Part shown: positions 6,403-39,555 of the stretch, piece after piece
Numbering within the stretch: position 1 is the stretch's first letter
Layout of the letters: each line of letters begins with the position of its first letter
Origin: a virus
Direction: 5' to 3' (one strand)
Length of the DNA stretch: 39,608 nucleotides
Virus record (IMG/VR): IMGVR_UViG_3300047510_000284
Coordinates: 1-39,608 of that record
Notes under the pieces: generated by a model
What the model saw: only the letters and a program-made list of their open reading frames with translations
Databases searched by the model: none
Told to the model about the DNA's origin: nothing
Translations under genes and position numbers: made by a program

Positions 6403-6422
6403 AAAATGGTTATTTCAAATCC

Positions 6423-6450: not shown

Positions 6451-6453
6451 TAG

Positions 6454-6675
6454 TTACCAGTCAGGATATTCCCATGTATTTGGGGATTTTTTATTTGCCA
6501 TCAATCTCTTGATAGTGCAATCTTTACACTCATAAGAGTATGACGAAGGTAAATGTCTCTTTGATTTTCTTATAATATAATAGTCATCTAAAAGATCTTT
6601 GATCTCTCCACAACATCTACATGTTCTTTCTTTAAACAATAAATGTTCCAGTGAAAACTGATCTTCGATGTCCAT
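6454..6675 (-). CDS. Small zinc-finger protein, treble-clef or HNH-like, downstream of terminase
   Basis: A 73-aa protein starting at an ATG whose A is the last base of the gene 17 stop codon (TGATG overlap), so translational coupling is likely. I chose this start rather than a longer in-frame one that would overlap gene 17 by 61 bases. Two CxxC pairs (Cys19-x-x-Cys22 and Cys50-x-x-Cys53) suggest a bound zinc ion, with a basic stretch between them (IIRKSKRH). The layout resembles the N-terminal zinc module of HNH or endonuclease VII-like phage proteins, but the catalytic His/Asn part is not evident and the protein ends soon after the second pair. Function is unknown; an accessory to packaging or a nuclease remnant are both possible. 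Confidence 0.7.
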   Translation of the reverse strand: MDIEDQFSLEHLLFKERTCRCCGEIKDLLDDYYIIRKSKRHLPSSYSYECKDCTIKRLMANKKSPNTWEYPDW

Positions 6676-13990: not shown

Positions 13991-14022
13991 AAAAAAATAC
14001 CTCTAGTTTCCTAGAGGTATTT
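13991..14022 (-). terminator. Terminator hairpin that also holds the gene 13 ribosome site
   Basis: The arms at 14011-14022 and 13995-14006 pair perfectly over 12 bases with a four-base loop (14007-14010), followed on the minus strand by seven U residues ending at the gene 13 ATG. The 3-prime arm carries AGAGGT, a good Shine-Dalgarno sequence about eight bases from the ATG, so the hairpin would both end read-through transcripts from the 1771-aa gene and mask the gene 13 start. On the plus strand no U tract follows. Confidence 0.8.
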
Positions 14023-14025
14023 ATA
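14018..14025 (-). promoter_or_regulatory. Perfect T4-type late promoter for gene 13 (TATAAATA)
   Basis: The minus-strand box is a perfect TATAAATA overlapping the outer part of the terminator's 5-prime arm. With usual late-promoter spacing the transcript begins near 14012 and lacks almost all of that arm, so the hairpin cannot form and the ribosome site stays open. Confidence 0.75.
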
Positions 14026-14033
14026 AATCATGT

Positions 14034-14045
14034 TATTTATTTATC
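14034..14045 (-). promoter_or_regulatory. Two overlapping upstream late-like boxes (GATAAATA and AATAAATA)
   Basis: The minus strand reads GATAAATAAATA, which contains two overlapping late-like boxes 16-20 bases upstream of the perfect one. Transcripts from these would still contain the full hairpin. They may be weak or silent. Confidence 0.35.
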
Positions 14046-17000: not shown

Positions 17001-19359
17001 CTTGGAAATCTCCATTAATCTTTCCAGATTGAGCAATAGTTCCTAGTACTAAGTTACCATTAACAGTCGCTGTCGCAACTGCTGTTGTGGCATCATTATA
17101 GAAGTTTAATTCTGTGCCACGAATAGTTGCTTCAAGTGGAATCTCGGTTGGGTCAAATCCTCTTGCAGAACAACCATAGTTACCCCAAGAGTTGTTTCCA
17201 CCGAGAGAGCGCATACGAGCACCACCAGAGCAAGCATAACCAATATGAGCGTAGTAAGTAAAGCAAGAAACAATTTCTGAGTTTCCATTGTCCTTACACC
17301 AAATCGCAACACCCATTTCTGGGAACTGTGTTACGTTGCCAAATAGTAAGCTTTGGTGACCAGAAGCAAAGTGAGATGGGTGATCTTTTCCTTCATTGAC
17401 AGAACCATCTACAATAGCGCCAACACCTTTAAATGAGTATGCCGCACAACTGTAAATATAAGGACTCTTAATAATATTCTGTGATACCAGGAATGGATTG
17501 ATTCTCCAGAAAACGAACCCAACCTGACATTGTGTGATATCAGCAAGTTTGTTTGTTATTTCTTCCTCGATTGTCAATCCAGTTGTATCTGGCATAACAA
17601 AACCAGCATCGGGGTCTGGGTTGTTGAATACAAGATCCTTGAGCATCACACCTTCCGAAAGGAAGAATAGAGTTGCTTTGGTGTTATTTAGATTTTCAAC
17701 AGAAATGATATTTACTTCAGGTGCTGTTCCTAAATCAGTACCGTTTAAGAAAGTATCTGTATCGATAATAGGACCACCAGCAATGGTTTCAACATAAACC
17801 ATTTTTTTGCGATTTGATTCTCCGCTGCCCACGGGGGTAGCGTCAGTATCAGCAAAGTGAAGAACTCTTGCAGTTCTGGTTGCCCCTGCTAATGTATCAA
17901 CAGTCAGTGTATCTCCTGGCTTTAATAAACATGTTGAATCAATGATTAATCTTTGAATCTTACTTAAACCTGGACCTGGCTCGATAATAGTTCCTCTACT
18001 GTCGTCACCAACAACAGAACAATATGGTGGAACCGTAATAGGACACTCTTCGTCGTATACACCAGCTTTTACATAAATCGTTGCTGGGTTCTGTTCGTCA
18101 CAACCTTCTTGTGCAGCAATCTGAGTGGCGTACTTAACTGTTCTAAAAGCTCTTCCAATAGAACCGCCATAACCATCAGAAAAATCATCAACGCCATCTA
18201 AGTTTACAAAATAAACTTTTCTGGTTTTTGCATTACCCCACCCAGGAATACCATTTTCTGTAGCATAGAGAATCTGACCAGGATCTCCTATGGGCAATCT
18301 TGCGTTGGTAGCATTCGCTCTGTAGAGAAGATCACCTTTTGTTGTGATTGTACTTTCTTCATCGCCCCTCGCAACTACAGACCAGAATCCATCTGCATCA
18401 TTGGTTCCAGGATCTCTTCCTAAGTTATTGTAAGCAATGCTTACATAAGTACTAGAAGCTAGGGTGATTACATCGTTCTTTTGATATGTTGTTTGGTCAT
18501 CCCAATCACCTTTATAAGATAAACCTTCCGAGATTAAACTCCATTTTAACGCACCATCTCCTGATTCATTTGGAGCAATCCCCGCTACACTCGTAAGCAT
18601 TTTAACGAATGTGTTTCCACCAAAACGAACTACATCCCCAGGAACGTAAATGGTTGCTGGATTATAAACACCTTTTGAATCAAAACCAATACTGATTACT
18701 TCCCAATCGGTGCTAACATAGTTGTTTGGTTGTTTGTCAGTATTAATAGTTTTTGCGGTATATGAATAACCACCAAAAAGAACGATGTCCCCAGGTTGAT
18801 ATTCCGTACTCGAATCCCAACTATCTTCAAACTTTACTGATTCTAAGTAAAGAGTAAACTTAGTAATATCAAATGCTGTCGTTGAAGTATGACCTAGATT
18901 GCATAGGTAAATATTGTTTCCATACTTAACAAGATCATTGACTTTATACCAAGTGTTTTGCTGCCAAGTTCCTTTGTTTTCTGTGCCGTTATAAAAAAGA
19001 TCCCAGTTACCAGCAAAGTTTGTTAGGTAAAAAAGATTTTGGTCGGATGGTGAAGTGTGGTTGTCTTTACAAATGTAAATATTGCCACCATAACGCACAA
19101 GATCATTTTTAGCGTAGAAAGTATTTGGTTGCCAAGAACCAGCATTTCTAATACCAGGAACATATAGTTCCCATCTTGGTGTACTTGCGTTGAGATCAAC
19201 ATCTTCCCATTGCTCTACTGAACCAGTAGAAGTGTGGTTAACCACACAAACGTAAGTATTACCTCTGAATGAGATAATATCGTCCAGAACATAGGCGCGG
19301 TTTGGTTGCCATTCGCCAGTCCAGTTGAACTTTAGTCTACCTAATCTAAATTCAGCCAT
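14044..19359 (-). CDS. Giant tail-fibre-like virion protein with carbohydrate-binding-like repeats and beta helix
   Basis: A 1771-aa protein. Residues about 13-332 hold six repeats of about 50 residues patterned W-x(6-8)-Y-x2-(G/N)D-(I/L/V)(V/I)-x2-GGNxY-x-C, for example WQPNTFYAKNDLVRYGGNIY, similar to chitinase-type (CBM5/12-like) carbohydrate-binding repeats. A linker with GDPGQILYATENGIPGW follows. About 385-800 looks like a pectate-lyase-type beta helix (ATIYVKAGVYDEECPITVPP, SVVGDDSRGTIIEPGPG). Later parts include TVNGNSTVSGDMIIGGSLQV, shared with the 540-aa protein, and a C-terminal tip domain also shared with it. Cyanophage homologues are virion structural proteins. It follows the 219-aa gene by 17 bases with an AGGAAG ribosome site and ends at a terminator. 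Receptor or glycan binding is inferred. Confidence 0.85.
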   Translation of the reverse strand: MAEFRLGRLKFNWTGEWQPNRAYVLDDIISFRGNTYVCVVNHTSTGSVEQWEDVDLNASTPRWELYVPGIRNAGSWQPNTFYAKNDLVRYGGNIYICKDNHTSPSDQNLFYLTNFAGNWDLFYNGTENKGTWQQNTWYKVNDLVKYGNNIYLCNLGHTSTTAFDITKFTLYLESVKFEDSWDSSTEYQPGDIVLFGGYSYTAKTINTDKQPNNYVSTDWEVISIGFDSKGVYNPATIYVPGDVVRFGGNTFVKMLTSVAGIAPNESGDGALKWSLISEGLSYKGDWDDQTTYQKNDVITLASSTYVSIAYNNLGRDPGTNDADGFWSVVARGDEESTITTKGDLLYRANATNARLPIGDPGQILYATENGIPGWGNAKTRKVYFVNLDGVDDFSDGYGGSIGRAFRTVKYATQIAAQEGCDEQNPATIYVKAGVYDEECPITVPPYCSVVGDDSRGTIIEPGPGLSKIQRLIIDSTCLLKPGDTLTVDTLAGATRTARVLHFADTDATPVGSGESNRKKMVYVETIAGGPIIDTDTFLNGTDLGTAPEVNIISVENLNNTKATLFFLSEGVMLKDLVFNNPDPDAGFVMPDTTGLTIEEEITNKLADITQCQVGFVFWRINPFLVSQNIIKSPYIYSCAAYSFKGVGAIVDGSVNEGKDHPSHFASGHQSLLFGNVTQFPEMGVAIWCKDNGNSEIVSCFTYYAHIGYACSGGARMRSLGGNNSWGNYGCSARGFDPTEIPLEATIRGTELNFYNDATTAVATATVNGNLVLGTIAQSGKINGDFQVGSIISNEGSANNTSITGVVGNGTTATVSFATKPFNPYVVGKQITISGVSNSAFNGTFTVTGIVGTDGVITGVQFASTTTATLGAGGTVRPALGKARVLYVLAGNDYTKVLIEPITGFIGDGQRCAQITGSDPNNPPPVNIPEASTVIENSEFPSTSPSESAANRATRGAKFAVINLPEKPKITSAVTFSDSVDGINYVIQEIENYSDGPSATFKVLDVTRTASLENTVVTIPIAKTGTFPTGVNRPAETHVGGTDITLYSLLTGTNNQVLIDNPGQLLTSTSATNINILNPERVTAALATYNTASTTLYLLVGNELMLPTAVVDDQFNSYVTVVRAQEGTIAQEHADQDSPNFPQNAVVRFVVKYTPVTTLRQDSTNLSNVLSYSSLTGNGGLPVFSFTDQEGVATKTINENDFIKIDNEFFRVDLKTSTNPGTAILTFFPVKSVSEGSGNRLQIRYRYSQIRLTGHDMLEIGTGGIATTNFPDEPTIRPDETKETNFIAPARIYYVTTNQDGNFKVGQFFKIDQATGRSTIDASAFDLTGLSNLQFALADGTKVGVEVTKFDADATLGGSESSDSFVPTQKAVKTYVDSNFISSNQDITVGSEAVNKNLTVNGNSTVSGDMIIGGSLQVSGTTTSINTTELIVEDVNVILAGGNVTGDSAIQGAGLTIKGTTDKTISYDGSSTTGRFNISENLLLAPGKYIASKPAATDGTGALATEEIMIDTNVSGSTGIGLVFPTISQLDIGNASTALTIGATTGTTTVRNSLIVPAGTTTLAPLRFTPTAAALLTLPLQGGFEYNQIAFYASATTEGGRGIILAPQILRAAADFAQTGTTNTVRNVFSGTTQDAAPLRANTLYRFRGCYYFAKSTTTSGTWNLLFTFSNAPTNFRYNSIGANGPSTTALFFQNTTATGSTAVTQAVTVTTDCAIRFEGYFVSNATTGGTLTPQFNKSDTANATVNTRTNSYFEIQAMGPANPSIIAGTWS

Positions 19360-20774: not shown

Positions 20775-20782
20775 TATTTATA
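20775..20782 (-). promoter_or_regulatory. Perfect T4-type late promoter for the 229-219-1771 unit (TATAAATA)
   Basis: The minus-strand box is a perfect TATAAATA, 38 bases ahead of the 229-aa ATG and immediately downstream of a terminator. This defines a clean transcription-unit boundary. Confidence 0.75.
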
Positions 20783-20828: not shown

Positions 20829-22451
20829 TCACGCAACAAAAGTTCCAATACTTCCAGCAGGCAATCTTCTTACAGTGTAGAAACTGCCTCTCTGCAGTGT
20901 AATACCGTTAGCAGAAGAAGTGACACGCAAGCGAATATTTCCAGCAGTAGTTGCGTTTGCTAAGAAATAAGACTTCACAACATGGTAATGGTTACCAATC
21001 GCCATTGAAGCAGATGCTGGAAGTGCTAATGAAGCTGCGTTGGAAGAACTGACATGTTGACCAACCACACCAGCGTTTTGTAAACCTTGAGAACTTAATG
21101 CAGCATATTGCCAGTTTTGTGTGCTGACTAATGTGTATGTATGTGTACCAGCAGTAGTGGTGCGAATCCAATACATGTGATATTCAATCTCATAGTATGC
21201 ACCAGCAAGGAAAGGAAAACTACTTGTTGCAGGGAATGCATCAATAATAGCAGTACCAGTAATAGCAGTATTGTTTGCTGTTACTTGATATCTATTTAAT
21301 GTCTCTACATACTTTTTGCCGTTAGCAGTATCTGCATTCGTCAAATAAAACTGTGTGCCGTCATACTCAAACGCACCCGCTGTTGCGGTTGTCAACAAAG
21401 AACCTACAGTAAACTGGATTGGAGCTTTAGATGTTGTACCTGCCAGTGGTTTTAAAGCACTATCATTGACGATAACAATATCACCTGTTCCATTACCAGA
21501 CAATCTCAAATCAACGTTAGTTTCTCCAAAAGATTGAATCAGTGGACCAGTAGTTCCAGTTGCAGCGTTGGTAATCTTAACTTCATTAACAGCATTGGCA
21601 GTTACACCAAACTCTAAAAGTTCATTGCCATTACTATCTGCAATGAATCCAGTATCAACAAATCTAGGTGCAGTTAAGGTTTTGCCAGACAGTGTTTGAG
21701 TGCCATCAATAGAAACAATATCACCTGTGTTCGTACCGCCGATTGTTTTGCCTAAAACTGCAGATGAAGAAAGAACTACAGTGCCATTGATTTCATAAGC
21801 CTTTCCATTAGCAAGATGAAAATCTTCGGTACAGTTAAATCTACTGTTAGCATGATTATATTGAATACTAATACCAGTAGTTCCTAAAGTAAAACCGCCA
21901 GTATCAACAGTAGCGGAAGTTGTCTGACCATCACCCAAAACAATCAAAGGATCATTGAATGTTACTGTAGTTGAGTCAATGGTAGTAGTAGTTCCGAGAA
22001 CTTCTAGGTTACCTTTGATTTGAACTGTACCAGTGTCATCTCCAACTGTAGCTGGATCAATAACAAGTGTTCCTGGTCCCTGAATCTGAACTCCAGTTCC
22101 GAGAACGAGGTTACTATTTACAATGCCGTTAATAGTAACAGTATCCGAAGAATCGCTTCCGAGGATAACGTTGCCATTTGCATCTAGGGTGGTGAAAGCA
22201 CCGCTGCTTCTGGTGGTAGCTCCAACAGAAGCATTATTGATTGTTCCACCATTGATGGCGGGTGAGGTGAGTGTTTTATTTGTTAGGGTTTGTGTAGCGG
22301 TTCTACCAACCATTTCCTGCCCACCAGCAGTCACGCCATCGTGTACTACGACAACCTTTTTATCAGTATCAACAGTTACCTCAGCAAGAGCACCCGTAAA
22401 GGTGCTATGCTGAGTTGTAGTCCCCCTTCTAAACTGAACTTCTTTCGTCAT
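20829..22451 (-). CDS. Tail-fibre-like protein with Mtd-type N-terminal domain
   Basis: A 540-aa protein. Residues 1-45 (VQFRRGTTTQHSTFTGALAE, VDTDKKVVVVHDGVTAGG) closely resemble the N-terminal domain of the Bordetella phage tropism determinant Mtd, a trimeric attachment fold. Next come TLTNKTLTSPAINGGT and repeats with GNLEVLGTTTTIDSTTVTFN that form fibre shafts. The C-terminal 170 residues, beginning KAPIQFTVGSLLTTATAGAF, are a tip domain shared with the 1771-aa protein. The variable C-type lectin domain of Mtd is absent. It has its own late promoter (22475-22482) and is followed by a strong terminator, so it is a monocistronic unit. A receptor-binding fibre is the likely role. Confidence 0.85.
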   Translation of the reverse strand: MTKEVQFRRGTTTQHSTFTGALAEVTVDTDKKVVVVHDGVTAGGQEMVGRTATQTLTNKTLTSPAINGGTINNASVGATTRSSGAFTTLDANGNVILGSDSSDTVTINGIVNSNLVLGTGVQIQGPGTLVIDPATVGDDTGTVQIKGNLEVLGTTTTIDSTTVTFNDPLIVLGDGQTTSATVDTGGFTLGTTGISIQYNHANSRFNCTEDFHLANGKAYEINGTVVLSSSAVLGKTIGGTNTGDIVSIDGTQTLSGKTLTAPRFVDTGFIADSNGNELLEFGVTANAVNEVKITNAATGTTGPLIQSFGETNVDLRLSGNGTGDIVIVNDSALKPLAGTTSKAPIQFTVGSLLTTATAGAFEYDGTQFYLTNADTANGKKYVETLNRYQVTANNTAITGTAIIDAFPATSSFPFLAGAYYEIEYHMYWIRTTTAGTHTYTLVSTQNWQYAALSSQGLQNAGVVGQHVSSSNAASLALPASASMAIGNHYHVVKSYFLANATTAGNIRLRVTSSANGITLQRGSFYTVRRLPAGSIGTFVA

Positions 22452-25400: not shown

Positions 25401-28400
25401 AATGATTGTGTTCCAGTACCAGTGGAAGATAAGTTGATTCTAGTTCCACCTGAAGATGCTGATAGAGTAAATCTATCTAATCCAATAACTTCCTTTACAT
25501 AATACGTTTGAAGGTCAGTTAAACCGCCGATTGTGGTATTGCCACCGTCATCATAAACAAGTTCTGTGCCAGGTACTAGACCGTGGTTTGCCTTGAAGAT
25601 AGTATCGGCAGTTGGGTTGGTAATAGTCTTAGTGAAGACATGAGCAGAACCAGTACCAAAACTTTCAAGGTCTAAACGGTTGCCAATAGAAGTTGTTTTG
25701 AGACCAAACTTAGTTGGGGAACTCAAGTCAACATAGTAACCCTTAGTTGCAGTTCCAAATGCCGAACCAGTTCCAGGGTTTGCTGTTGATGTAACTGTAA
25801 ATGATGTAGTCCCGTTAGTTGAGGCAATCGTCCAGCTTCCGTTATATGCGGATGGAGTTACACCAGAGATTACAATACCTTCACCAACTGCCCAAGTTGA
25901 AGCACTTGTGGTTACAGTAAAGTTAGATGATGTAGATGAGATCGCGCTGATGTTAATGCCAGAGAACTGAGTTAGACCTTGAATAGATGTTCCGCCACCA
26001 TTTGAATATGTGACAATATCATTGTCAACAAATCCATGTGCTGACGAGAAGTTGATGAGGTTTCTTGCTGCATATTCTGCGTATGGAACAAACGCATGAA
26101 TACCACTTGTTTGTGAGAAGCTGTGAGTATTAACGTTTTGTGCTCCAAAATCGGTCAGGTTTATTCTAACACCATTAGATGCTAGTGATAGACCATATCT
26201 GTTGGCATCATAGCGTCTTACGAAGTAATCAGTATTTGTTGTGAGACCAGGAATAGCAGTGTTTCCATTGGCATCGTATCTTACAACATCGTTATCACTG
26301 TATCCATGATTTGCGTGGAAAATAGTGGAAGCAGTTTCAAGTGAACGATAAGGAACAAGTAGGTGAATCTGACCACCAGCTGCAAATGTGTAAGCAGCAC
26401 TGAATGTAAATGCTGTACCACCTCTTGTCGTCGCAAGAGTCATTGTAGTAGCAGCTGGATAAGACCTGGAGAAATAAGTAGTTCCTAAGGTAGTATTTAC
26501 TGCAGTGATTACACCACTGGTTGTAGAAGTAGCTGCTGCACTCATTGTATATGTTCCAGCACCACCAGTACCAGTTCCGAAGGCAAGAATAAATGCTCCA
26601 TTAGGAATACCAGGACCAGAAATAGCAGAACCGATTTCTAAAGTTCCTGTGATTGCAGTTGGTGATCCACTAACTGTGATTGTAGCACTTGCGTTTGTTG
26701 TACTTACAGATCCAATAAATGTACTACTTACAGCACTATTATACCATTGAGCAGTGTTTGCTTCCGCACCTTGGAATACGTTACCAGTTGAAGATAGAAC
26801 GTTTAGTGATGGACCTCTATAGTAAACAAACTTTTGGTCAAGGTTTCCGTTAATTAAGAATCCTCTACCAGCGTTGTTGTTGTTAACATCAGTACCTTGC
26901 ATGGTAATGGTAGCACTACCAGATGCAACTGAGTTAATAACCATACCAGCAACGAGTAGGAATCCAGGTCCACTGAAACCAGATAGTGTTTGTGCAGTTG
27001 TTCCGTTTTGTACTAATGTAAGAGCAGGAGCTGCTGGTGTAGCACTAGCAACTCCAGTGGTTCTGATGGCATATGCTCTGCCAGCAACTAGACCAGTAGG
27101 TAGAGTTGTTCCTGGAAGAGGAATAACTGCGACACCAGTACCATCGGTAAATACAGAAGTACCAGAGCCAAAGTTAATAAAGTTACCAGAAATCATGTTT
27201 GGTGTTACAAGGGCAATGCCACTATTTGCTGTGCCGTGATTTGTTCCTTTACGAGAAGTTGCATTAAAAATGGTAACCCCTAAAGAATCTTGTTGATATT
27301 GCAGGTTACCAGTGATAGTGGTGGAAGCAACCGTTAGTGAAGCACTAGTTGTGTAAGTACCAATACCACCAGTACCAGTACCAAATGCAGTGATTCTTGT
27401 GCCAGCAGTTATACCAGTACCAGAAATAACGCTACCGATAGCTAAGCGACCATCTGTTACCGAAGTGATTGTTAGTGTTGTTGCATTAATACTTCCAGTT
27501 CCACTAAATGAACCAAACTCTTTTCTGAGTGAGTTGATTGCTAGAAGTGGACCTTCAGTAACATTATATGCACCAGTTGAAGTTGAGTTGATGGTCCAAT
27601 CTGCAGAAGCACCACCAGTAACAAAATATGTACTGGTTAAGTTTGCTGAATCCGCAGTATACCAGTCTGCGATAGTGCCAACAGCATCAGCAGGACCAGT
27701 AGTACCAGCAGATGATTGCTGAATGAGAGCAGGGCTTTGATCACCTCTGTAGTAAACAAATCTCTGTGAACTAGCCCATCCAGGATTATCAAAGAACTTG
27801 ATTTGATCGTTGCTATAGTTGATGCTTCTTACACCATGCGCTCTAACAATAGCAAACTGTCCACTACCTTGAGAAGTAATATCTACTTTAGTTGTTGAAC
27901 TCCAGTATCTTGTTAGATAGAAAGTATTGGCGTCAATAGTTCTGAGAACATATGCACGACCACCTGTTACACCGCCAGGCATTGTAGCACCAGACGCAGG
28001 AAAAATAACTACTGCTTGGTTATCAGAGAATCCGTGTGCAGTTAGTGTAATATTATTTGTTGTTGCATCAACAGCGTCACTAGTAAATGCTTTGGTATTT
28101 GAAACACCAGATAATCCTTGCTTATCCCAAATAGTTACATTATAAGAATCTAATGTTCCAATAGACTGTGTTCCTGTTGGGTTAACAGTTGCAGTTGTTG
28201 TCAAGGTATCAGTGATATCGACCAGAGTAGCATCAAATGAAATGTTACTGAGAGCAATGGTGTTAGTTAGATAGAATGCAGCTCCATTAACAAACCCAGA
28301 TGGATATGGAGTTTCAATCGTAATGGTTGATGGGTTTACCGCATCAGTAAAAATAGATTTATAAGGAACTTGAGAACCTTGATAAAACTGTCCAGGAGTA

Positions 28401-29094: not shown

Positions 29095-29283
29095 TTAACC
29101 ACCTAGGGCGATTGACAGGGCAAGTGAGGTACTCTGCTTTGCTACTTCAAATCCTCCTTGAGTTACTCCATCGTGCATGATTACAGTACTTTTATCCGTA
29201 TCAAATGTGATTTCCGCTTCCGCTCCAGTAAAAGCAGCGTGCTCAGCGGTAGTTCCTCTTCTTAGTTTGACTCTAGTAGTCAT
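29095..29283 (-). CDS. Free-standing Mtd-type N-terminal domain protein
   Basis: A 62-aa protein that is almost only the Mtd-like attachment domain: VKLRRGTTAEHAAFTGAEAE, ITFDTDKSTVIMHDGVTQGG. It is nearly collinear with residues 1-45 of the 540-aa protein and then ends with a short hydrophobic tail (STSLALSIALGG). It has a perfect late promoter at 29314-29321 and sits directly ahead of the 2193-aa gene, so expression is credible. It may be a trimeric cap or adaptor that plugs a fibre into the baseplate, or the relic of a fibre whose shaft was lost or replaced. I cannot separate these from sequence alone. Confidence 0.75.
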   Translation of the reverse strand: MTTRVKLRRGTTAEHAAFTGAEAEITFDTDKSTVIMHDGVTQGGFEVAKQSTSLALSIALGG

Positions 29284-29313: not shown

Positions 29314-29321
29314 TATTTATA
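29314..29321 (-). promoter_or_regulatory. Perfect T4-type late promoter for the 62-aa and 2193-aa genes (TATAAATA)
   Basis: The minus-strand box is a perfect TATAAATA, 31 bases ahead of the 62-aa ATG, in the gap after the 3006-aa gene. Confidence 0.75.
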
Positions 29322-29324: not shown

Positions 29325-32300
29325 TTAGATAATGGTGACGTAACTTCTTGGTGGGCGGAAAGGATTCCATAGAATCTGAGATTCTCCACTAGTTGTAAAT
29401 AGAACAGTATCATTTTCTGGTCTTCTTCCAACAGACTCAGCAGCACCATCAAACGCGAATAGTGTGCCATCTCCAATGACAATATTTGTTCTGACAATAC
29501 CAGCAGAACCAGAGAATGTTGCAAAGATATTGCTGGTTGGAACGACTGCCGTGGATTCTGCAGCACCACTGAAACCAAATAGAGAACCAGAACCAACATA
29601 AGATTCTGTGTTTCTTTCTGTTGCTGCTCCAGAAATAGTTTCTGTGCCAGTAGCAATGTAAGTAGCACGAGTGTAACTTTCTGCACCAGTGCCAGATAGA
29701 GTTGCTGTGCCAGAAGCAACAAATACTCTTGCTCTCGCATCACCAGAATCACCAGTGATAGTAACGTAAATGGTGTTGTTGATAGCAACTGCTCTGGTGA
29801 TAGCACCACTTCCTACATTGTAAAGTGAACCAGAACCCTCGTAGGATTCTGTATTCTTCTCTGTTGCAGCACCAGTGAATGTGTAAAGAACTGTATCTTC
29901 TGGTGGGTTGACACCGAATGCCTCGGCAGCACCACTGATAGCAAATAGCGAGCCAGATGCTACATAAGATTCTGTATTGCTCTGGTCTGCAGTGCCAGTG
30001 AGGGTTGCTGTTCCAGTCGCATCGTATGTTTCGGTATTTCTCTCAACAGAGAATACATCAACAGAGATGTCACATAGACCGACATAAGATTCGGTGTTCT
30101 TCTCGGTAGCAGAACCAGAGTAAACAAATAGCTGGATATTTTCTGGTGGATTTGCTCCAGTAGATTCGGCAGCACCACTGAAGTTGGAGATAGAACCAGA
30201 ACCAGTATATGTTTTTGTCTCCGTGACAACAGAATCAATATCGATATAAATGTATCCTTCTGGATAGTAAACATTAGTTGTGCTTTCAAATCCAACACCA
30301 CTGTAAGTAAAGATCTGTGTGTTTTCTGGTGGATTTACACCAAATACTTCTGCGGCACCAGATGTTGCAAATAGAGAACCAGATGCAATATATGATCTGT
30401 ATGCTATAACAACAGCAGATCCGCCAGTAATATACTGTTCATATCCATAATATGTTTCTGTGTTTCTTTCGACAGCTGATCCACTAATAGTAAAGATTTG
30501 CGTCGTTTCATCGACTTGAGTGGTGAAGGATTCTTCTGCTGATCCGACAAATGTGTACAGTATAGTATTTTCTTCTGGGTTGATTGTTCTGCTTTCTGCG
30601 GAACCATCGTAGTTGAAGAGTTGACCAGTGCCAACGTAGGATTCTGTATTCTTCTCAATCGCAGTGCCAGTAACAAACTCTGTGCCAGTGCCAACTTCGC
30701 TGTATGTATTGAGAACAACAGAGAATCCAGTGAAGGTGAAGAGTGAGGTATCTTCTGGTGGGTTTGCACCAAATGCCTCTGCAGCACCACTGATAGCAAA
30801 TAGAGAGCCAGTTCCGTTGTAGTTTGCCCACGCAAATGCTTCGAGTCCAACACCAGAAGCAGTGAGAGTTCCTGTGCCGTTGTATGCTTCAGTGTTCTTC
30901 TCAACTGCCGTGCCGCTGAGAGTTGCAGTGCCAGTACCAAAGTGTGCTTCTGTATTTCTCTCTGTGATGAAACCAGAGAATGTAAGTTGAGCAAAGTCTT
31001 CTGGTGGTTGAGCAACGAATGCTTCAGCAGCAGAGCTAGAGAATGTGAAGAGAATCGTATTCTCTGGTGTCTGAGCGGAGAATGCTTCCGCTGCACCAGA
31101 TAGAGCAGTGATAAATCCAGTGCCAACATAGGACTCTGTATTCTTCTCTACTGCTGTGCCGCTGAGTGTCTCTGTGCCCGTACCGACATATGCCTCTGTA
31201 TTTCTTTCTGTGGCAGCACCAGAGTAAACGAATAGATGTGTATTCTCTGGTGGATTGACACCGAATGCTTCTGCAGCCCCAGATAGAGTAGAAACAGAAC
31301 CAGTACCGATGTAAACTTCGGTGTTCTTCTCCGCAGCAATACCAGAAGCAGTGGTAGTTCCAGTGCCAACATATACTTCTGTATTCTTTTCTTTTGCAGT
31401 ACCAGATAGTGTCTCTGTTCCAGTACCAACCCAAGATTCTGTGTTCTTCTCGGTTGCTGTACCAACAAAGGTGTAGAGAACAACGTCTTCTTCTGGGTTG
31501 ATTGTTCTGCTTTCTGCAGCACCATTGAATGTGAAGAGTTCGCCAGATCCAGTGAATGTCTCTGTGTTCTTCTCAATGGCAACACCAGAAGCAGTGGTAG
31601 AACCAGTACCAACATATGCTTCTGTATTTCTCTCAACATGAGATACGGAGATTGTGTATGTTCCTTGACCGTCTGTTTCAAATCTGTAGAGATAGATAAC
31701 TCTAGTTTCTGCGACACCAGAAGAGACGAAGAGGTGTGTATTTTCTGGTGGATTGACAGTGAAAGATTCTGCCGCACCAGAAACAGTGGATAAGGAACCA
31801 GATCCAACAAACGCTTCCGTATTCTTCTCTACACAGACACCGCTTGCAGTTGTGGATCCTGTGCCAACGTAGGACTCGGTGTTCTTCTCTACCGCAGCTC
31901 CAGTGTAGGTGAATAGTGTAATATCTTCTGGTGGGTTGGCACCAAATGCTTCAGCAGCACCAGAGATTGTAGAAACAACACCAGTACCGATGTAAACTTC
32001 GGTGGTATTGTAAATACCAGCACCACTTAAAGTCTCTGTGCCAGAACCAACGAATGCTTCGGTGTTCTTTTCAACTGCTGTTCCAGTAATAGATTCAGTT
32101 CCAACACCAACATAAGACTCAGTGTTCTTCTCTGTAGCAGCTCCAGTGTAAGTGAATAGTTGAGTGTTCTCTGGTGGATTAGCACCAAATGCTTCCACTG
32201 CGCCAGACAGAACAGAGAAGGTGCCAGTTCCAACGTAGGACTCGGTGTTCTTCTCTGCGCCAACACCGCTGAGTGTCTCTGTTCCTGTGCCAGCAAATGC

Positions 32301-35300
32301 TTCAGTGTTCTTCTCTGTGGAGAATACATCAATCGTAAAGATTGGATTATCACCAACATAATCTTCGGTATTTCTCTCAACCGCTGCTCCACTGAGAGTG
32401 GTTGTGCCAGATGCAGATGCTGTGTAGACTGCAATCTCTCTAGTATTGCCAACGCCAGATACAGAGAAGAGTTGAGTGTTTTCTGGGGGATTAGCGCCGA
32501 ATACTTCAGCAGATCCAGATGCGGTGAATAGGTTACCAGAACCGTTGAAGCTTTCTGTGTTTCTTTCGGTTGAGAATACATCAATAGAAGTGCTGCCAGT
32601 ACCAATGTATCTTTCTGTGTTGCTTTCAACTGCAGAACCACCGAAAGTAAACTGACCTGTCGCACCAATAATAGTTTCTTCGTAACGAATATATCCATAA
32701 TCAAATATGCCGCTAGTTGGTGGTAGAGCGACAGATCCATAATCAATGTCAATAGATGGAATCTCAGTAACAAACTCATAATCAACTTCATTAAATCCGA
32801 TAACAACATCAATATTGTAAACATAAGTTACAGACTCAGCAGCACCACTAAATCCGAATAGAGATCCAGTACCGACATAAGATTCTGTGTTTGTAACTAC
32901 AGCAGAACCAGATGTGGTTGTTGTGCCAGTTCCATTGAAGGCGTTGACTTCCTTATAAGAAGCAGCACCAGATGTGAAGAATGTAATATAATCAGTATAT
33001 GGGAAGTAACCAATGAAGAAGATTGATCCACTGATGCTAACGAGAACACCAGATCCAACGAAGGACTTGACGAGATCTTCGTCACCTTCACCTGTGAGAG
33101 TTTGAGATCCAGTACCGACCCAGGACTCAGTGTGCTTGATGTCAGAAGCAGCACCAGTGTATGTGAATAGCTGTGTATTCTCTGGTGGGTTGACTCCAAA
33201 GACTTCTGCAGCACCAGATGTTGCAAATAGAGAACCAGAAGCAATCTCTCTGGGAGTTGAGCGAACAATAGAAGTTGGAATAATCTCAATGTAGTTTCTT
33301 ACTGTAGTGCCGTTATCAATAAACTCACTGGCAATAGAAGAAATCAGACCATAATCTTCTGTGGATGTTGTAGCATCCTTAATAAGATTTCTATACTCAT
33401 TGACAACTTCGACAGTTTCAACTGTGTAATCGTAAGTTCTTCTCTCTTCAGAATCAATAAATGTGAATGCGTTACCAGAACCAACATAAGATTCGGTATT
33501 CTTTTCAGTAGATTCGACATCAATATTGATTGTTCCATTACCGATCCAGTTTGGAACGAAACGCATTGTGTGTGTAACGTCAATCTCAGTTGTTCCTGCG
33601 CCAATATAAGACTCTGTGTTCTTCTCGGTAGCAACACCTGAGTAGACAAAGAGTTGTGTGGATTCTGGTGGATTTGCACCAAATACTTCAGCAGCACCAA
33701 ATGCAGTGAATAGAGATCCAGTGCCAATCTCAGATACAGAAGTTACATCAACAGCAACACCAGTTACGGAAATATTTTGTGTATTCTCTGGTGGATTGAA
33801 TCCAGCAGACTCGATAGCAACACCAGAGAATGTAAACTGAGCAAAGTCTTCTGGTGGGTTTGCTCTGAACTTCTCTGTTGCTGTTCCGCTTGTTTGGAAT
33901 AGCTGAATATTTTCTGGTGGGTTCGCACCAAATACTTCAGCAGCACCAGATGATGTAAATAGATTACCAGATCCGATTTCAGCAACGGATACAGGTACTG
34001 TACCAGTGCCACTGATAGTGATTGTGCCATCCTTGCTGACCCAACGTGGAATCTCGCGTACCTTGCCAAAACCACTGATAGTAATAGTACCAGAAGCAGT
34101 ATATAATCCTTCTCCAAAAGATTCTGAGGCAGTTCCTCTTAGGAATAAGAAATCAAAGTCTACTGCACCATATGATTCAGTTTGTGTGAATGCTATGTCA
34201 ACAGTGCCATAATCTTCGGAAGAAGTAATGGCATCAGTAATCAATCCATAATCATCTACACTTAGTAGATTGGATTGAGATACAGTGTAGTCATACGTTC
34301 TACTTTCAATCTTATCAACAATCTCAAATAGAGTTCCAGTACCAACATAAGATTCAGTATTCCTTTCAACTGCAGATCCACTGAGAGTAAAGAGCTGAGT
34401 ATCTTCGCCACCTTGAGTAGTAAACTTCTCTACCGCAACACCAGAGAATATAAACTGTGCAAAATCTTCTGGTGGGTTCGCTCTGAACTTCTCAACTGCA
34501 TTGCCACTAGTAGCGAAGAGTTGGATATTTTCTGGTGGGTTGGCACCAGTAGATTCTGCTGCACCAGAAGCATTGAAGAGATTGCCAACACCAATATAAT
34601 CTTCGGTGTTCTTCTCAACTGCACTACCAGTAATAGATTCAGTTCCAACACCAACGTAAGATTCCGTATTCTTCTCAACAGCTGCGCCCGAGATAACAAA
34701 GATCTGAGTATTCTCTGGGGTATTTGGAGAGAATGCTTCAATCGCAGCACCACTTAGGTTGATTGAACCGAATGGTAGTACAGATTCGGTGAAGATTACT
34801 GTGCCATAATCTACTTCGCCACCAGAGAATGCACCAGCAACAGTACCATAATCAATCTCTATAAATGCGGCAGCACTGATAGAACCATAATCAACATCTA
34901 GGAACGGTACTACGTCGTTTAGATCATAGACATAGGTTCTGCTTTCATCCGAATCAATGAACTCAAATAGAGTACCTGTGCCAACATAGGATTCGGTGTG
35001 CTTCTCAACCGATGTAATATCAATATTGATAGTACCCGAACCATTCCATTTTGGATTGACCTTGACTATAGCAGCACCAGATACTTGGAATAGTTGTGTA
35101 TTCTCTGGTGGGTTTGCACCAAACGCTTCTGCAGAACCATTGGTTGTGAAAGCGAAACCAAATCCAACATATGCTGGTATGAGTTTTCTGAGTTCTGAGA
35201 ATACATCTAATGTTGCCTGACCAGTACCAACATAAGACTCAGTATTCTTCTCTACACTGCTGCCAGTATATGTAAAGGTTACTGTTTGTTCTGGTGTTTG

Positions 35301-38300
35301 AGCAACAAACTTCTCAACCGCAGTACCATTAGTATCAAATAGTTGTGTATTCTCTGGTGTCTGAGCAACAAGTTTTTCTACCGCATAACCAAATAGCTTG
35401 AGGTAATCTCTTACTACGCTACCAGCAGTCTCAAACTCAGTAGCAGCAGATGTGATTAATCCAAAGTCTTCTGTAGATCCAGCAGACTCTCTGAGATCAC
35501 CATAATCAGAGAGAACATGAATAGATGCTTGAGCAACTGTGTAAGACTCAGTGTTCTTCTCAACCTTAGTAACATCAATAGAAGTGCTACCAGTACCAAC
35601 ATAAGACTCTCTGTTCTTCTCTACAGCTGCACCAGAAATACTAAAGAGTTGAGTTGTTTCCCCACCTTGAGTGGTGAACTTGAGGTTGCTGTACGCACCA
35701 GAAAGAGTAAACTGAGCAAAGTCTTCTGGTGGATTTGCTCTGAACTTCTCTGTTGCTGTTCCGCTAATGTCATATAGCGAGAAGTCTTCGGACGGATTAG
35801 CACCAAATGCTTCAGCTGCACCAGAAGTGTTAAAGAGATTACCAATACCTACATAAGATTCTGTATTCTTCTCTACAGCAGATCCAGTGAGATTTACAGA
35901 TCCAACACCGATAATACTTACTGCGAGAGGTAGAACAACTTCGCCACTGAGGGTGATTGTACCGCCATTGTCAACAATATTCTTGCTAAACAGTTCAATA
36001 GCAAATCCAGATGTAGTCCACAATCCATAAGGGACTACTTCATTAATAAATGTGATTGAACCATAATCTTTTTCGCCACCTGTATTAGGAGCACTGACAC
36101 TACCAAGATCAATGTCGTTTGTTGGTGATTGAGTAACACTGCCGTAGTCAAACTCGGTGAATGGGATGAACGAATCAAAGCTGTAGCGGTAAGTTACAGA
36201 CTCTGCAGCACCAGAGAATGTAGAGAATGTACCAGAAGCAACATAGTCTTCAGTATTCTTCTCTATCGCTGCTCCAGTGAACTGGAATAGTTGAGTTGTC
36301 TCTCCACCTTGACTTGTGAACTTCTCTACGCCAGCACCAGAGAATGTAAAGAGCTGGGTATTTTCTGGTGTTTGTGCAATAAACTTCTCAACGGCAGCAC
36401 CGTTAATATCATAGTAATCACTAGAGAGATAGCGATAATCTACATTAGTTGCAGACTGCGTGATGAGACCATAATCTTCAGACTCTGTTACTGCCGTCAG
36501 ATCGCCGTAGGAAGCGAATAGATCTGTGACATTTCCTGCTAGTTCTGCTACATACGTCTCAGTGTTCTTCTCAACGCTCACAACGCTGATTGAGGTGCTT
36601 CCAGTACCTACATAGTCTTCGGTGTTCTTCTCCACCCCAGAACCGCTTAGAGCGAAGAGTTGCGTGGTTTCTCCAGCACCACTGGTGAACTTCAGGTTAG
36701 TATATCCATTGGAGAATACTATACTTGTTGGTGGAGATGATAATAATGATATTTCGGTTATGCCGTAGTTATCAAATCCAGTACCACTAGAAGAAGACTG
36801 AGAAATCCTAAAAATTGTTGAAGATGTTTTGGCATCATTTGGTATTACTAAAGATACACTTTTTAAGTTGTTGAATGACGCATCGTTATATGTAACAATA
36901 TTTCCAACATTTGTAAATGTATTACCATTATTAATACTATACTGAAGAACTAAACTTTCTGTGGATGTATCGGGATCTTCTCCCCCGTTATTGTCATTTC
37001 CACGAATGGCAGTGAACTGGATAGTGTTATATGATCCAACATTCAAAGGTTGTAAATCTAATCTTCTCGCACCAACTCCATCAAATTTAAAGTGACTGCC
37101 AATATTAAATCCACCGTTAGCGCCTACACCAGTACCAGAACCTGATATAGATACACCAATAAAACTATTAGTGTTTATTTTATTAGAAGAAGTCGATAAT
37201 GTAATAGAAACGATACTATTTCCAATATATCTTTCAGTATTCTTTTCTGCTGCACTACCAGTAATATCAAATAGCGAGAAGTCTTCTGGTGGGTTTGCGC
37301 CAAATACTTCGGCAGCACCAGAGGTATTGAATAGGTTACCTGTTCCTACATAATCTTCGGTATTCTTCTCAACTGCTGCACCACTGAGGTTTACAGATCC
37401 AACACCTTTGATGCTTACAGCAAGAGGTAGAACAACTTCGCCACTTAATGTAAATGGTACTGTTTCTGCTGGTGTTTGCTTGCTGAAAGATTCTAAACCT
37501 ATACCATTTGTTTCGTAGAGACCAAATGGCGTTTCTTCAGAATCATTTACGATCAGCCCGTAATCCTTTTCCCCCCCAGCATTTGGTTGAGACACAAACC
37601 CAAAATCAATATCAGGGTTTGATACTAAACCAAGAGAACCATAATCAACTATGTTGAATGGCAGTACATTTTCAAAGTCATAGCTTCTGATATGCGCCTC
37701 TGTTGAGGCGACATCCAATCGGAGCGGACCAGAAGTTCCGACTGTTGAGAATGCTTTTACAATCTCATTAGCAGACCCACCAATCTCAAATGGAGTTCCA
37801 TTACCAACCCAAGCAATAGCAACTTTAGAAATAGCAGCAGTAACTCCAGTTAACGAAGAACCGCCATAGATTGATAATAACAAAGTAGAAGCATCTGTTT
37901 TTTCTACAAACGCTACTAGAGCAGATGCTGATGAATATGTGTATCCTGGCTCCATTGCCAAGATGGTTTGACTTACATCAATACGATACCTGTCTTCTCT
38001 AACGCTTATGCCATCTTCAGCTGTTAGAGTACCGTAATCATCCGTTGAAGTCTTTGCATTAGTTATTAACCCATTATCTTCTTCAGCGAAGAGATTATCA
38101 GAAGATGATGAGTAAGAATATTTTTTAGGTTTATAGTACTTTGCAGTACCATTTACAGTAGCAAAACCAAACGCAGTATCGTTGTTTTGCTTTACTGTTA
38201 TTTCTGCATATGATTCTTGTGAAGTGGCAGATACGTTAATAGCACCAAAATCCTCAGTAGATGTCGCGGGTCTGACGTAGACAAACCCATTATCTACTGA

Positions 38301-38345
38301 GGAAAAAGGATAACTGTCGTTACTATCGTAAACGTATGACGCCAT
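29325..38345 (-). CDS. Giant 3006-aa repeat protein, probable fibre or adhesin of the virion
   Basis: The longest gene of the window and an uninterrupted frame of 9 kb. It is built of about 40 copies of a 15-residue core (A/T)VEKNTESYVGTGxxxx followed by LSGxA, alternating with over 20 copies of SGAAEAFGANPPENTQLFxxxG. Four larger modules of about 70 residues rich in DYG (near residues 220-285, 710-780, 1130-1200 and 1830-1900) punctuate the first two thirds. One non-repetitive domain (about residues 370-548) resembles a reelin-type jelly roll. The last 1000 residues are nearly all short repeats. No catalytic motif, signal peptide or membrane segment is seen. Beta-strand periodicity and neighbours suggest an elongated fibre; receptor binding is inference. 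The upstream leader has AGAGGG, a terminator, and no late box. Confidence 0.85.
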   Translation of the reverse strand: MASYVYDSNDSYPFSSVDNGFVYVRPATSTEDFGAINVSATSQESYAEITVKQNNDTAFGFATVNGTAKYYKPKKYSYSSSSDNLFAEEDNGLITNAKTSTDDYGTLTAEDGISVREDRYRIDVSQTILAMEPGYTYSSASALVAFVEKTDASTLLLSIYGGSSLTGVTAAISKVAIAWVGNGTPFEIGGSANEIVKAFSTVGTSGPLRLDVASTEAHIRSYDFENVLPFNIVDYGSLGLVSNPDIDFGFVSQPNAGGEKDYGLIVNDSEETPFGLYETNGIGLESFSKQTPAETVPFTLSGEVVLPLAVSIKGVGSVNLSGAAVEKNTEDYVGTGNLFNTSGAAEVFGANPPEDFSLFDITGSAAEKNTERYIGNSIVSITLSTSSNKINTNSFIGVSISGSGTGVGANGGFNIGSHFKFDGVGARRLDLQPLNVGSYNTIQFTAIRGNDNNGGEDPDTSTESLVLQYSINNGNTFTNVGNIVTYNDASFNNLKSVSLVIPNDAKTSSTIFRISQSSSSGTGFDNYGITEISLLSSPPTSIVFSNGYTNLKFTSGAGETTQLFALSGSGVEKNTEDYVGTGSTSISVVSVEKNTETYVAELAGNVTDLFASYGDLTAVTESEDYGLITQSATNVDYRYLSSDYYDINGAAVEKFIAQTPENTQLFTFSGAGVEKFTSQGGETTQLFQFTGAAIEKNTEDYVASGTFSTFSGAAESVTYRYSFDSFIPFTEFDYGSVTQSPTNDIDLGSVSAPNTGGEKDYGSITFINEVVPYGLWTTSGFAIELFSKNIVDNGGTITLSGEVVLPLAVSIIGVGSVNLTGSAVEKNTESYVGIGNLFNTSGAAEAFGANPSEDFSLYDISGTATEKFRANPPEDFAQFTLSGAYSNLKFTTQGGETTQLFSISGAAVEKNRESYVGTGSTSIDVTKVEKNTESYTVAQASIHVLSDYGDLRESAGSTEDFGLITSAATEFETAGSVVRDYLKLFGYAVEKLVAQTPENTQLFDTNGTAVEKFVAQTPEQTVTFTYTGSSVEKNTESYVGTGQATLDVFSELRKLIPAYVGFGFAFTTNGSAEAFGANPPENTQLFQVSGAAIVKVNPKWNGSGTINIDITSVEKHTESYVGTGTLFEFIDSDESRTYVYDLNDVVPFLDVDYGSISAAAFIEIDYGTVAGAFSGGEVDYGTVIFTESVLPFGSINLSGAAIEAFSPNTPENTQIFVISGAAVEKNTESYVGVGTESITGSAVEKNTEDYIGVGNLFNASGAAESTGANPPENIQLFATSGNAVEKFRANPPEDFAQFIFSGVAVEKFTTQGGEDTQLFTLSGSAVERNTESYVGTGTLFEIVDKIESRTYDYTVSQSNLLSVDDYGLITDAITSSEDYGTVDIAFTQTESYGAVDFDFLFLRGTASESFGEGLYTASGTITISGFGKVREIPRWVSKDGTITISGTGTVPVSVAEIGSGNLFTSSGAAEVFGANPPENIQLFQTSGTATEKFRANPPEDFAQFTFSGVAIESAGFNPPENTQNISVTGVAVDVTSVSEIGTGSLFTAFGAAEVFGANPPESTQLFVYSGVATEKNTESYIGAGTTEIDVTHTMRFVPNWIGNGTINIDVESTEKNTESYVGSGNAFTFIDSEERRTYDYTVETVEVVNEYRNLIKDATTSTEDYGLISSIASEFIDNGTTVRNYIEIIPTSIVRSTPREIASGSLFATSGAAEVFGVNPPENTQLFTYTGAASDIKHTESWVGTGSQTLTGEGDEDLVKSFVGSGVLVSISGSIFFIGYFPYTDYITFFTSGAASYKEVNAFNGTGTTTTSGSAVVTNTESYVGTGSLFGFSGAAESVTYVYNIDVVIGFNEVDYEFVTEIPSIDIDYGSVALPPTSGIFDYGYIRYEETIIGATGQFTFGGSAVESNTERYIGTGSTSIDVFSTERNTESFNGSGNLFTASGSAEVFGANPPENTQLFSVSGVGNTREIAVYTASASGTTTLSGAAVERNTEDYVGDNPIFTIDVFSTEKNTEAFAGTGTETLSGVGAEKNTESYVGTGTFSVLSGAVEAFGANPPENTQLFTYTGAATEKNTESYVGVGTESITGTAVEKNTEAFVGSGTETLSGAGIYNTTEVYIGTGVVSTISGAAEAFGANPPEDITLFTYTGAAVEKNTESYVGTGSTTASGVCVEKNTEAFVGSGSLSTVSGAAESFTVNPPENTHLFVSSGVAETRVIYLYRFETDGQGTYTISVSHVERNTEAYVGTGSTTASGVAIEKNTETFTGSGELFTFNGAAESRTINPEEDVVLYTFVGTATEKNTESWVGTGTETLSGTAKEKNTEVYVGTGTTTASGIAAEKNTEVYIGTGSVSTLSGAAEAFGVNPPENTHLFVYSGAATERNTEAYVGTGTETLSGTAVEKNTESYVGTGFITALSGAAEAFSAQTPENTILFTFSSSAAEAFVAQPPEDFAQLTFSGFITERNTEAHFGTGTATLSGTAVEKNTEAYNGTGTLTASGVGLEAFAWANYNGTGSLFAISGAAEAFGANPPEDTSLFTFTGFSVVLNTYSEVGTGTEFVTGTAIEKNTESYVGTGQLFNYDGSAESRTINPEENTILYTFVGSAEESFTTQVDETTQIFTISGSAVERNTETYYGYEQYITGGSAVVIAYRSYIASGSLFATSGAAEVFGVNPPENTQIFTYSGVGFESTTNVYYPEGYIYIDIDSVVTETKTYTGSGSISNFSGAAESTGANPPENIQLFVYSGSATEKNTESYVGLCDISVDVFSVERNTETYDATGTATLTGTADQSNTESYVASGSLFAISGAAEAFGVNPPEDTVLYTFTGAATEKNTESYEGSGSLYNVGSGAITRAVAINNTIYVTITGDSGDARARVFVASGTATLSGTGAESYTRATYIATGTETISGAATERNTESYVGSGSLFGFSGAAESTAVVPTSNIFATFSGSAGIVRTNIVIGDGTLFAFDGAAESVGRRPENDTVLFTTSGESQILWNPFRPPRSYVTII
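29550..32640 (-). repeat. Dense EKNTESYVGTG / NPPENTQLF repeat tract
   Basis: Within the C-terminal third of the 3006-aa gene the short unit recurs almost without interruption, at periods of about 60-70 bases. The protein motif is conserved while codons differ between copies, so most copies are old duplications under selection. Some neighbouring copies share longer identical DNA runs, suggesting recent exchange. Repeats of this kind also produce many spurious open frames on both strands. Confidence 0.85.
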
Positions 38346-38368: not shown

Positions 38369-38399
38369 AAAAAAGGGGATTGCCAAGGCAGCAATCCCC
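38369..38399 (-). terminator. Intrinsic terminator after the 359-aa gene
   Basis: A nine-pair stem (38391-38399 with 38375-38383, GGGGATTGC/GCAATCCCC) with a seven-base loop is followed on the minus strand by six U residues (38369-38374). It lies 35 bases after the 359-aa stop and 23 bases ahead of the 3006-aa start. On the plus strand no U tract follows. Confidence 0.85.
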
Positions 38400-38434: not shown

Positions 38435-39514
38435 TCAGTCGAGGCTGATGTTGAGGGTGATCTTAATCTGGTCACCGTTGTTCTGAATCTCGTAAGGACC
38501 GTTTGTGAATCTCTCAGCGTACATGATTGCGCTGTAGAGAGTTACGTCACTGTTGCCAGTGAAAGCAGTGCCACCCGAGGTTAGAAGTGCTGGTGTAGTT
38601 GTGAACTCAGTTGTTGAGTTTACTTTGTAAACAGTATATGTGTTAGCAGCAACAGTACCGCCAGTAGTTGAAGTACCACCAGCAATATAGATTACGTCAC
38701 CAGGCTGTAGTTGGTGTGCAACATCAGTTACAACCTTACCGAATGAAAACTCAACAGTAGGATCGGTAGCGTCCTGAATGTTAGCGGTTAGGTTTGCGCT
38801 TAGGTATACTCTGTGACCGTTGTAAGGAGAATCAGTTGTAGTGGTTCTCTCAATACCGATAACCTTAGTGTTTGCTGGGATAGCAGCGTTACCACCAGCA
38901 ATCATGCCGATAGTTAGGTCATCTACACCACCGAATGAAGCACTGTTAGCAGTGGTAGGAACGGTGATGAAGTTGGTGTTGATCAGACCGATACAATCCT
39001 TAGTGCCAGCAGCACCTGCTTCACCCTTAGTGATTGTAGTGCCAGCTGAAGCAGTAGCAGCATCAAGAACACCTTGAAGTGCTAGTGGCATGTTGTTGGC
39101 GCGGGTGATGTAGTAACCATAAACGTTACCAGCAGCACCAGTGAAAGTAAAGGTTTGCTCGGGATAGGTAGCAGTTGTAGTTCCGCCTGATTGGGTGATT
39201 CCCCAACGTGAACCGTTTAGAAGAATACCATACTGCGAATCGTAATCGTAACGAGCTTCTGTGCGGTTGTTGACGCAAGTTGGGTAACCAGTCTCAATAG
39301 CTGAACCGTAACCAAAGCTGCCATCATTCTGATAAGGCTCGTAATAGGCAGACTGAGAAGGTACATCATTCTCAGCAGGAGTTGTGTCCGATGAAAATAG
39401 TTTTAAAACAAGATCTCTAGGTGCGGTATCTTCTCTATCAGCAACGTGATTGCTTTGGTTGATGAGATAACGTAGTGAGTCTAATTCACCAATATTTGGA
39501 ACTAGAAGTGCCAT
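38435..39514 (-). CDS. Conserved cyanophage-type virion structural protein
   Basis: A 359-aa protein beginning MALLVPNIGELDSLRYLINQ, with TYPEQTFTFTGAAGNVYGYY (about residues 115-135) and ending ERFTNGPYEIQNNGDQIKIT, a layout I associate with virion proteins of marine T4-like phages. The region around residue 265 (VAHQLQPGDVIYIAGG) resembles the HGL-type beta repeat of the 2193-aa protein. It has an excellent GGAGGAAA ribosome site, a perfect late promoter, and a strong terminator, so it forms a single-gene, probably abundant, late unit. The precise location in the particle is unknown to me. Confidence 0.75.
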   Translation of the reverse strand: MALLVPNIGELDSLRYLINQSNHVADREDTAPRDLVLKLFSSDTTPAENDVPSQSAYYEPYQNDGSFGYGSAIETGYPTCVNNRTEARYDYDSQYGILLNGSRWGITQSGGTTTATYPEQTFTFTGAAGNVYGYYITRANNMPLALQGVLDAATASAGTTITKGEAGAAGTKDCIGLINTNFITVPTTANSASFGGVDDLTIGMIAGGNAAIPANTKVIGIERTTTTDSPYNGHRVYLSANLTANIQDATDPTVEFSFGKVVTDVAHQLQPGDVIYIAGGTSTTGGTVAANTYTVYKVNSTTEFTTTPALLTSGGTAFTGNSDVTLYSAIMYAERFTNGPYEIQNNGDQIKITLNISLD

Positions 39515-39547: not shown

Positions 39548-39555
39548 TATTTATA
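39548..39555 (-). promoter_or_regulatory. Perfect T4-type late promoter for the 359-aa gene (TATAAATA)
   Basis: The minus-strand box is a perfect TATAAATA, 34 bases ahead of the 359-aa ATG. This is the best promoter and ribosome-site combination in the window. Confidence 0.75.

Follow-up and report, generated by a model that had tools for sequence, protein, structure and literature searches.

The window, the whole 39,608-nt stretch of DNA that was analysed, is a virus contig (39.6 kb) in which a very large repeat protein, P0001, is encoded among the late structural genes of a T4-like cyanophage. The P0001 frame starts with ATG and has 3006 codons and zero internal stops. An earlier, sequence-only reading of this DNA had described a single frame of about 9 kb and 3006 residues; this was correct, and we add that it lies on the minus strand. 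P0001 matches phrog_11522 (PHROGs v4, E = 1.6e-233, 18 stretches), a family listed in PHROGs as of unknown function. The coordinates of the features discussed below are collected in Table 1.

The genes with family matches around P0001 all share its orientation. They comprise gp23, scaffold, protease, portal, tube, sheath, terminase and gp16-gp13, a 1771-aa tail-fibre protein with CBM5/12 modules, smaller structural genes, a 2193-aa virion protein (P0002), P0001 itself and the 359-aa protein P0004. PHROG tail-fibre and virion-structural matches flank P0001 on both sides, which agrees with the location amid fibre genes given in the sequence-only reading. A contig of 171,625 bases (L013/L030) represents the same virus and carries an identical P0001 gene. 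Among 12 records searched, psbA was present in this contig, in that of the relative L014 and in two more, and its presence on L013/L030 led us to take the phage as a cyanophage, a virus of marine cyanobacteria. Over the 20.3 kb compared, the window and L013/L030 are identical save for window positions 27224-27486 (P0002 residues 527-614), where 23 differing alignment columns (gaps counted) fall inside an 89-column stretch; the mixed substitution types there suggest module exchange. The 1771-aa tail-fibre protein (window 14044-19359) has four CBM5/12 stretches in Pfam. A 62-aa ORF at window 29095-29283 resembles the N-terminus of a 540-aa protein (window 20829-22451) with a Pfam Mtd_N domain, and by eye it appears to be a stand-alone copy of this tropism-determinant N-domain.

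Table 1. Features at the P0001 locus, in window coordinates.
Feature	Coordinates	Strand	Basis
TATAAATA just past the P0001 stop, 31 nt before the next ORF	29314..29321	(-)	motif scan
CDS of the 3006-aa repeat protein P0001, phrog_11522	29325..38345	(-)	ORF list, profile match
Last 12 residues of P0001, PFRPPRSYVTII, best conserved end of the family	29328..29363	(-)	terminus comparison
Array of 20/21-residue units, residues 326-2990, broken up by other modules	29376..37370	(-)	motif counts, matrix
3764-nt block 100% identical to L014	31492..35255	(-)	nucleotide comparison
Stretch holding 19 DYG-type motifs, residues 32-1886	32688..38252	(-)	motif scan
Reelin-subrepeat-B-like jelly-roll insert, residues 395-538	36732..37163	(-)	Pfam, PDB sequence, AF2, Foldseek
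Hairpin of an intrinsic terminator in the P0004-P0001 gap, conserved and showing compensatory changes	38375..38399	(-)	locus survey
Constant 359-aa partner P0004 (phrog_10467), proposed adaptor	38435..39514	(-)	profile match, locus survey
TATAAATA, T4-type late promoter, 34 nt before the P0004 start	39548..39555	(-)	motif scan

Most of P0001 is built from a repeat of 20 or 21 residues that occurs in two forms, EKNTExYVGTG... and ExFGANPPENTQLF.... The exact 11-mer EKNTESYVGTG has only five copies, and degenerate motifs gave 37 ([EVR][KR][NH]TE) and 39 (NTE.[YFWH]) matches for the first form and 25 for [NQ][PT]P[EV]x, 24 of which run on into the LF part. These counts bear out the roughly 40 copies of the unit and more than 20 copies of NPPENTQLF reported previously. 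NPPENTQLF had been taken as a separate partner motif and is instead an alternative form of one unit, in the same register: unit starts are mostly separated by multiples of 20-21 residues, with the order of the two forms varying. Using a matrix trained on 27 + 25 units of the two forms from P0001 itself, we found 88 units scoring at least 6 bits, compared to a mean of 0.0 in 10 shuffles. Intervals between units were 20 residues in 34 of 87 cases and 21 in 32, and these 66 spacings, together with autocorrelation peaks at lags of 20, 61, 81, 41 and 21, support the regular periodicity noted earlier. At 8 bits, 32 of the 35 proteins tested had units, 31 of them between 7 and 88 and L068 just one; the three proteins with no units at this threshold share only a reelin-like domain, described below. 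The DYG-type motifs and the reelin-like insert of P0001 are not covered by the unit.

The statement that the unit belongs to no named domain family was about right, with one qualification. DUF4075 (PF13294) passes the Pfam cut-off for the whole protein (29.4 bits; cut-off 25), although no single stretch passes alone and the best stretch spans just 22 of the 79 positions, short of a full-length domain. There were no Pfam matches in the last 450 residues of P0001, no NCBIfam match for the protein and no rows from Tandem Repeats Finder. Among the C-termini of 25 family members, Pfam reported DUF4075 in four, Ribosomal_L35Ae in two, KMPT-N (1.7e-11) in one, and Bflower_3, Peptidase_G2, Rv3651-like_C and PatG_D in single members; we judged these scattered matches to be repeat artefacts. 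A scan of cellular genomes with residues 2001-2300, which reaches close relatives only, gave no relative.

The N-terminal part of P0001 has a different composition. DYG-type motifs occupy the N-terminal 63% only, with none in the last 37%. In 31 other proteins of the set, L050 and L051 have no such motif, 28 have none past 0.73 of their length, and in L068 (519 aa) the motifs reach 0.86. The single insert within this region resembles reelin subrepeat B. The insert, and only the insert, belongs to Pfam PF21471 (56.8 bits; cut-off 27), and its sequence matches PDB entry 2ddu (E = 9.6e-9). In an AlphaFold2 model of residues 1-640 (45 alignment rows) the insert formed a jelly roll with block means of 70-98, and Foldseek matched this model to reelin repeat 8 (7lyu, E = 1.7e-10), CBM35 (4e-5) and CBM6 (9.5e-5). 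Sequence and predicted fold place the insert with the jelly rolls of reelin subrepeat B and of CBM6 and CBM35, from which it differs in being a single copy within a phage repeat protein. Judged from its fold, the insert would be the best candidate for binding of surface glycans. The IRGNDNNGGEDPD loop does not vary among six sequences compared, but does so in a wider set.

The reelin-like domain is not a constant part of the family, and it also occurs elsewhere. A viral scan returned 38 loci with the domain, of which 36 were examined. It recurs in other virion proteins of cyanophages, including genes annotated as baseplate wedge in ACG-2014b and S-SCSM1 and a putative short tail fibre of S-RSM4. 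Within the P0001 family the domain is present in L014, L020 and L077-L084, and the insert is missing from most members tested; we did not find the domain in the relatives from S-CAM1, S-SSM7, S-SCSM2R and Sf-FS3 or in L016 and L019. The S-CAM3 relative has two such domains, at residues 210-355 and 1356-1490 of its open frame, and the position of the second at mid-length argues against restriction of the lectin to the N-terminus. A literature search found no report joining a reelin domain with a bacteriophage tail fiber.

In contrast to the interior of the protein, the termini are conserved, the C-terminus most of all. Mean identity was 41% for the last 12 residues, 26% for the first 12 (from 25 members with a usable start) and 7.5% for random interior 12-mers. 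The last residue was I in 28 of 29 C-termini and V in one, and 26 ended in II; the 29 are what remains of 35 proteins after removal of the three reelin-only proteins, two near-duplicates and L068, which does not end in II.

Structure prediction, which had been proposed as a check for consecutive units, succeeded for the jelly roll and failed for the shaft. For the last 450 residues AlphaFold2, run with 25 sequences, reached a mean pLDDT of 26.5, and in the model of residues 1-640 the units beside the jelly roll were mostly below 50, the jelly roll alone being folded. A PDB search with a shaft profile returned one match (E = 0.13), which we take as chance, and sequence searches of Pfam and PDB gave no known fibre fold for P0001. 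A beta fold for the shaft is plausible. That the units were poorly predicted while the jelly roll, serving as an internal control, folded suggests that they form an oligomer; this falls short of proof, because the control had a deeper alignment than the units, and low pLDDT also fits disorder or a poor alignment.

P0004, encoded immediately upstream of P0001, is a constant partner. There were 93 loci with a plus-strand match to P0001. A P0004 homologue lay upstream in 62, 14 had no upstream DNA, and the 17 without P0004 were proteins that share only the reelin-like domain, so that every one of the 62 family loci for which DNA upstream was available had P0004; eight of these loci repeat a contig, leaving 54 records by hand count, several of them from near-identical viruses. 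The gap between the two genes was below 600 nt in 53 of the 62 loci and 1.0-4.8 kb in nine. In one long-gap relative (L042, positions 4124-6727) an 867-aa ORF, which we take to be subtilase-like from its GTSAACP motif, lies with others between the two homologues. P0004 is better conserved than P0001 (52-64% identity among five phages), and searches gave no Pfam family and no convincing relative in the PDB (best E = 0.073). It was present in 17 phage records, some of them RefSeq copies of one genome: seven of S-CAM1, four of S-CAM3, two of S-SSM7, one each of S-SSM6a, S-SCSM2R and Sf-FS3, and a partial single-cell fragment. All 16 full records hold a P0001 relative. Fifteen are the unit-matching records of our phage search, in which the other 23 of 38 matched by the reelin-like domain only; the sixteenth, Sf-FS3, has a 1505-aa relative in place. 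Given that a portal search listed 381 Synechococcus-phage and 62 Cyanophage records, the restriction of P0004 to 17 indicates that the module is accessory.

The two genes are arranged as a late module: a late promoter, then P0004, a terminator hairpin and P0001. Each of the four copies of TATAAATA in the window is on the coding strand, with a start 28-38 nt further on. Their number could arise by chance (four copies were reached in 13 of 100 shuffles), whereas their placement exceeds chance, since all four lie within 60 nt of a start and only 3.5% of the window is so placed. The motif NATAAATA occurs 16 times on the coding strand and not at all on the opposite strand, and 12 of the 16 are within 60 nt of a listed start (the gp23 start is missing from the list). 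Across loci, NATAAATA was found upstream of P0004 in 36 of 37 and after P0001 in 28 of 29. It was absent from the gap between P0004 and P0001 in the window, and present there in seven of 32 loci with a gap below 600 nt and in three long-gap loci.

Of 34 loci, 31 have the hairpin after P0004 (the exceptions being L011, L035 and L050), and eight of its nine pairs show compensatory change among 24 of these sequences. On the coding strand of 26 loci (607 kb), 22 of the 24 strong terminators sit at this one spot. The first possible P0001 start codon was 15-37 nt past the hairpin in the 14 loci measured, and in S-SSM7 the annotated start of the P0001 relative lies beyond the first possible one. A terminator between the two genes suggests that the fibre would be made by read-through, and in smaller amounts than its partner; this reading is weaker for the loci with NATAAATA between both genes. 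A private P0001 promoter is possible, since sigma-70 types were scanned by consensus only. In that scan sigma-70-like sites in the region were at chance level (22, compared to 24.2 expected). The hairpin could possibly also act in mRNA processing. Rfam gave no matches in the window. Three more terminator-like hairpins were noted there: one at 20809 on the minus strand, ending just before the TATAAATA at 20775-20782; one at 14022 on the minus strand, overlapping the TATAAATA at 14018-14025 and ending just before gp13; and a fourth, weaker one at 14829, inside a gene.

Comparisons between relatives indicated how the length of the protein varies. L014 has 85.4% amino acid identity to P0001 over 2994 residues and is collinear with it through the units. 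Outside the identical 3764-nt block (Table 1), the 500-nt bins of the two genes are 64-97% identical, and so long an identity in otherwise diverged genes points to recent exchange as the probable origin, with chimeric assembly as the alternative. For eight related pairs, gaps of 15-90 residues corresponded to whole units in 13 of 22 cases (null P = 2e-4), in nine of 11 past the first 30% of the protein (P = 1e-4) and in six of six past 45% (P = 1.4e-4). All six S-CAM1 records are 6393 nt long and all three S-CAM3 records 7677 nt, so there was no sign of fast length switching, and we rejected fast copy-number switching on these grounds. The proposal that copy-number change alters fibre length is supported between related phages and found no support within the species compared: length changes by whole units, blocks are exchanged between lineages, and length is constant within species in the isolates examined.

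The closest known systems are the isolate relatives in phrog_11522, S-CAM1 gene 099 (2130 aa) and S-CAM3 gene 094 (2558 aa). They are homologous to P0001 along the protein, have the same kind of units and occupy the same slot after P0004, and the S-CAM1 relative has the same type of C-terminus; they differ in being shorter and only about 25-33% identical over the longer tblastn matches. The T4 long tail fibre (gp34-gp37) and triple beta-spiral shafts offer a precedent for how P0001 would work, as a long repetitive shaft encoded by a late structural gene among fibre genes. No match of P0001 to gp34-gp37 was found in Pfam, PHROG or NCBIfam, and a PDB sequence search with the shaft gave none to a triple beta-spiral; the shaft model was of a monomer and of very low confidence. 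Host recognition by T4-like cyanophages has been hard to assign to genes, since their fibre genes have little in common with those of T4.

Published virion proteomes cover S-SM1, S-PM2 and Syn9 (PMC3037559) and S-CREM2 (PMC10665884). The genomes of S-SM1, S-PM2 and Syn9 had no match to P0001, and our literature search found no virion proteomics of a carrier. According to PMC3909814, carbohydrate-binding and tail-fibre genes are common in metaviromic islands, which would suit a role in host recognition.

We lean towards reading P0001 as a long virion fibre or adhesin with an oligomeric shaft and a docking end, produced from a late two-gene module, and consider this joint reading somewhat likely to be right. 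A long fibre or host-surface adhesin had been suggested before; it is the best reading here, and none of the papers examined places P0001 on the virion. The C-terminal part would be a uniform shaft of 20/21-residue beta-rich repeats that probably folds only as an oligomer. The N-terminal part carries the DYG-type modules and, in the subgroup of the window, one reelin/CBM-like jelly roll. The fibre may dock or close at the end formed by its near-invariant C-terminus and the adjacent P0004, which is the better conserved protein. P0001 is probably part of the machinery with which the phage grips its host.

Other readings of the gene have to be weighed against an oligomeric fibre. It is scarcely credible that the repeat gene is inflated by assembly or decaying without function. 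The only difference between L050 and L051 is a segment of exactly 260 residues that lies between the copies of a 195-nt direct repeat, and this difference could reflect recombination or assembly collapse; in the P0001 gene the longest exact direct repeat is only 32 nt and the identical gene recurs in the longer contig L013/L030, which argue against an artefact and remove the concern that the copy number came from assembly, and frames of the family are open in cultured isolates. The array could also be a monomeric beta-solenoid, an adhesin rod resembling filamentous haemagglutinin. A 20-residue period would suit one coil, and neighbours in S-CAM1 and S-SCSM2R are annotated as 'filamentous hemagglutinin-like' or 'large exoprotein'. 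We regard this as improbable, since Pfam gave no solenoid family and no solenoid appeared in the very-low-confidence model of 450 residues from 25 sequences, while the jelly roll, with a deeper alignment, reached block means of 98.

A place on the virion other than the tail fibre is unlikely too, if less so than a solenoid. P0001 would then be a head- or sheath-borne decoration or whisker that tethers the particle loosely to cells or extracellular polysaccharide. The order of the genes by itself leaves the virion site undecided, several other virion proteins contain reelin-like domains, and next to the S-CAM1 relative, on its downstream side, is a gene with the label 'putative hoc', in which Pfam nevertheless finds an Mtd_N domain. 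Against this, the upstream neighbours match tail-fibre, tail-fibre-connector and L-shaped-fibre-assembly families, and there is a BppU_N match, below the Pfam cut-off (20.2 versus 23.1 bits).

For the long-fibre reading, a fully specified architecture would have the C-terminal 'II' anchored to P0004 as adaptor, the DYG and lectin-like modules distal at the N-terminus, a shaft of the 20/21-residue beta repeat, and an adaptor:fibre ratio set by the terminator. As a combination this is rather doubtful, and we found no description of such an architecture in the literature examined. New here are the constant partner P0004, the late promoter, the covarying terminator, the near-invariant C-terminus and the whole-unit length change between relatives. 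The two genes, as a module that combines a conserved partner with a conserved terminus and sometimes a lectin-like domain, provide concrete candidates for host recognition in S-CAM1, S-CAM3 and S-SSM7, and the terminator between partner and fibre suggests a simple way of setting their stoichiometry in the virion.
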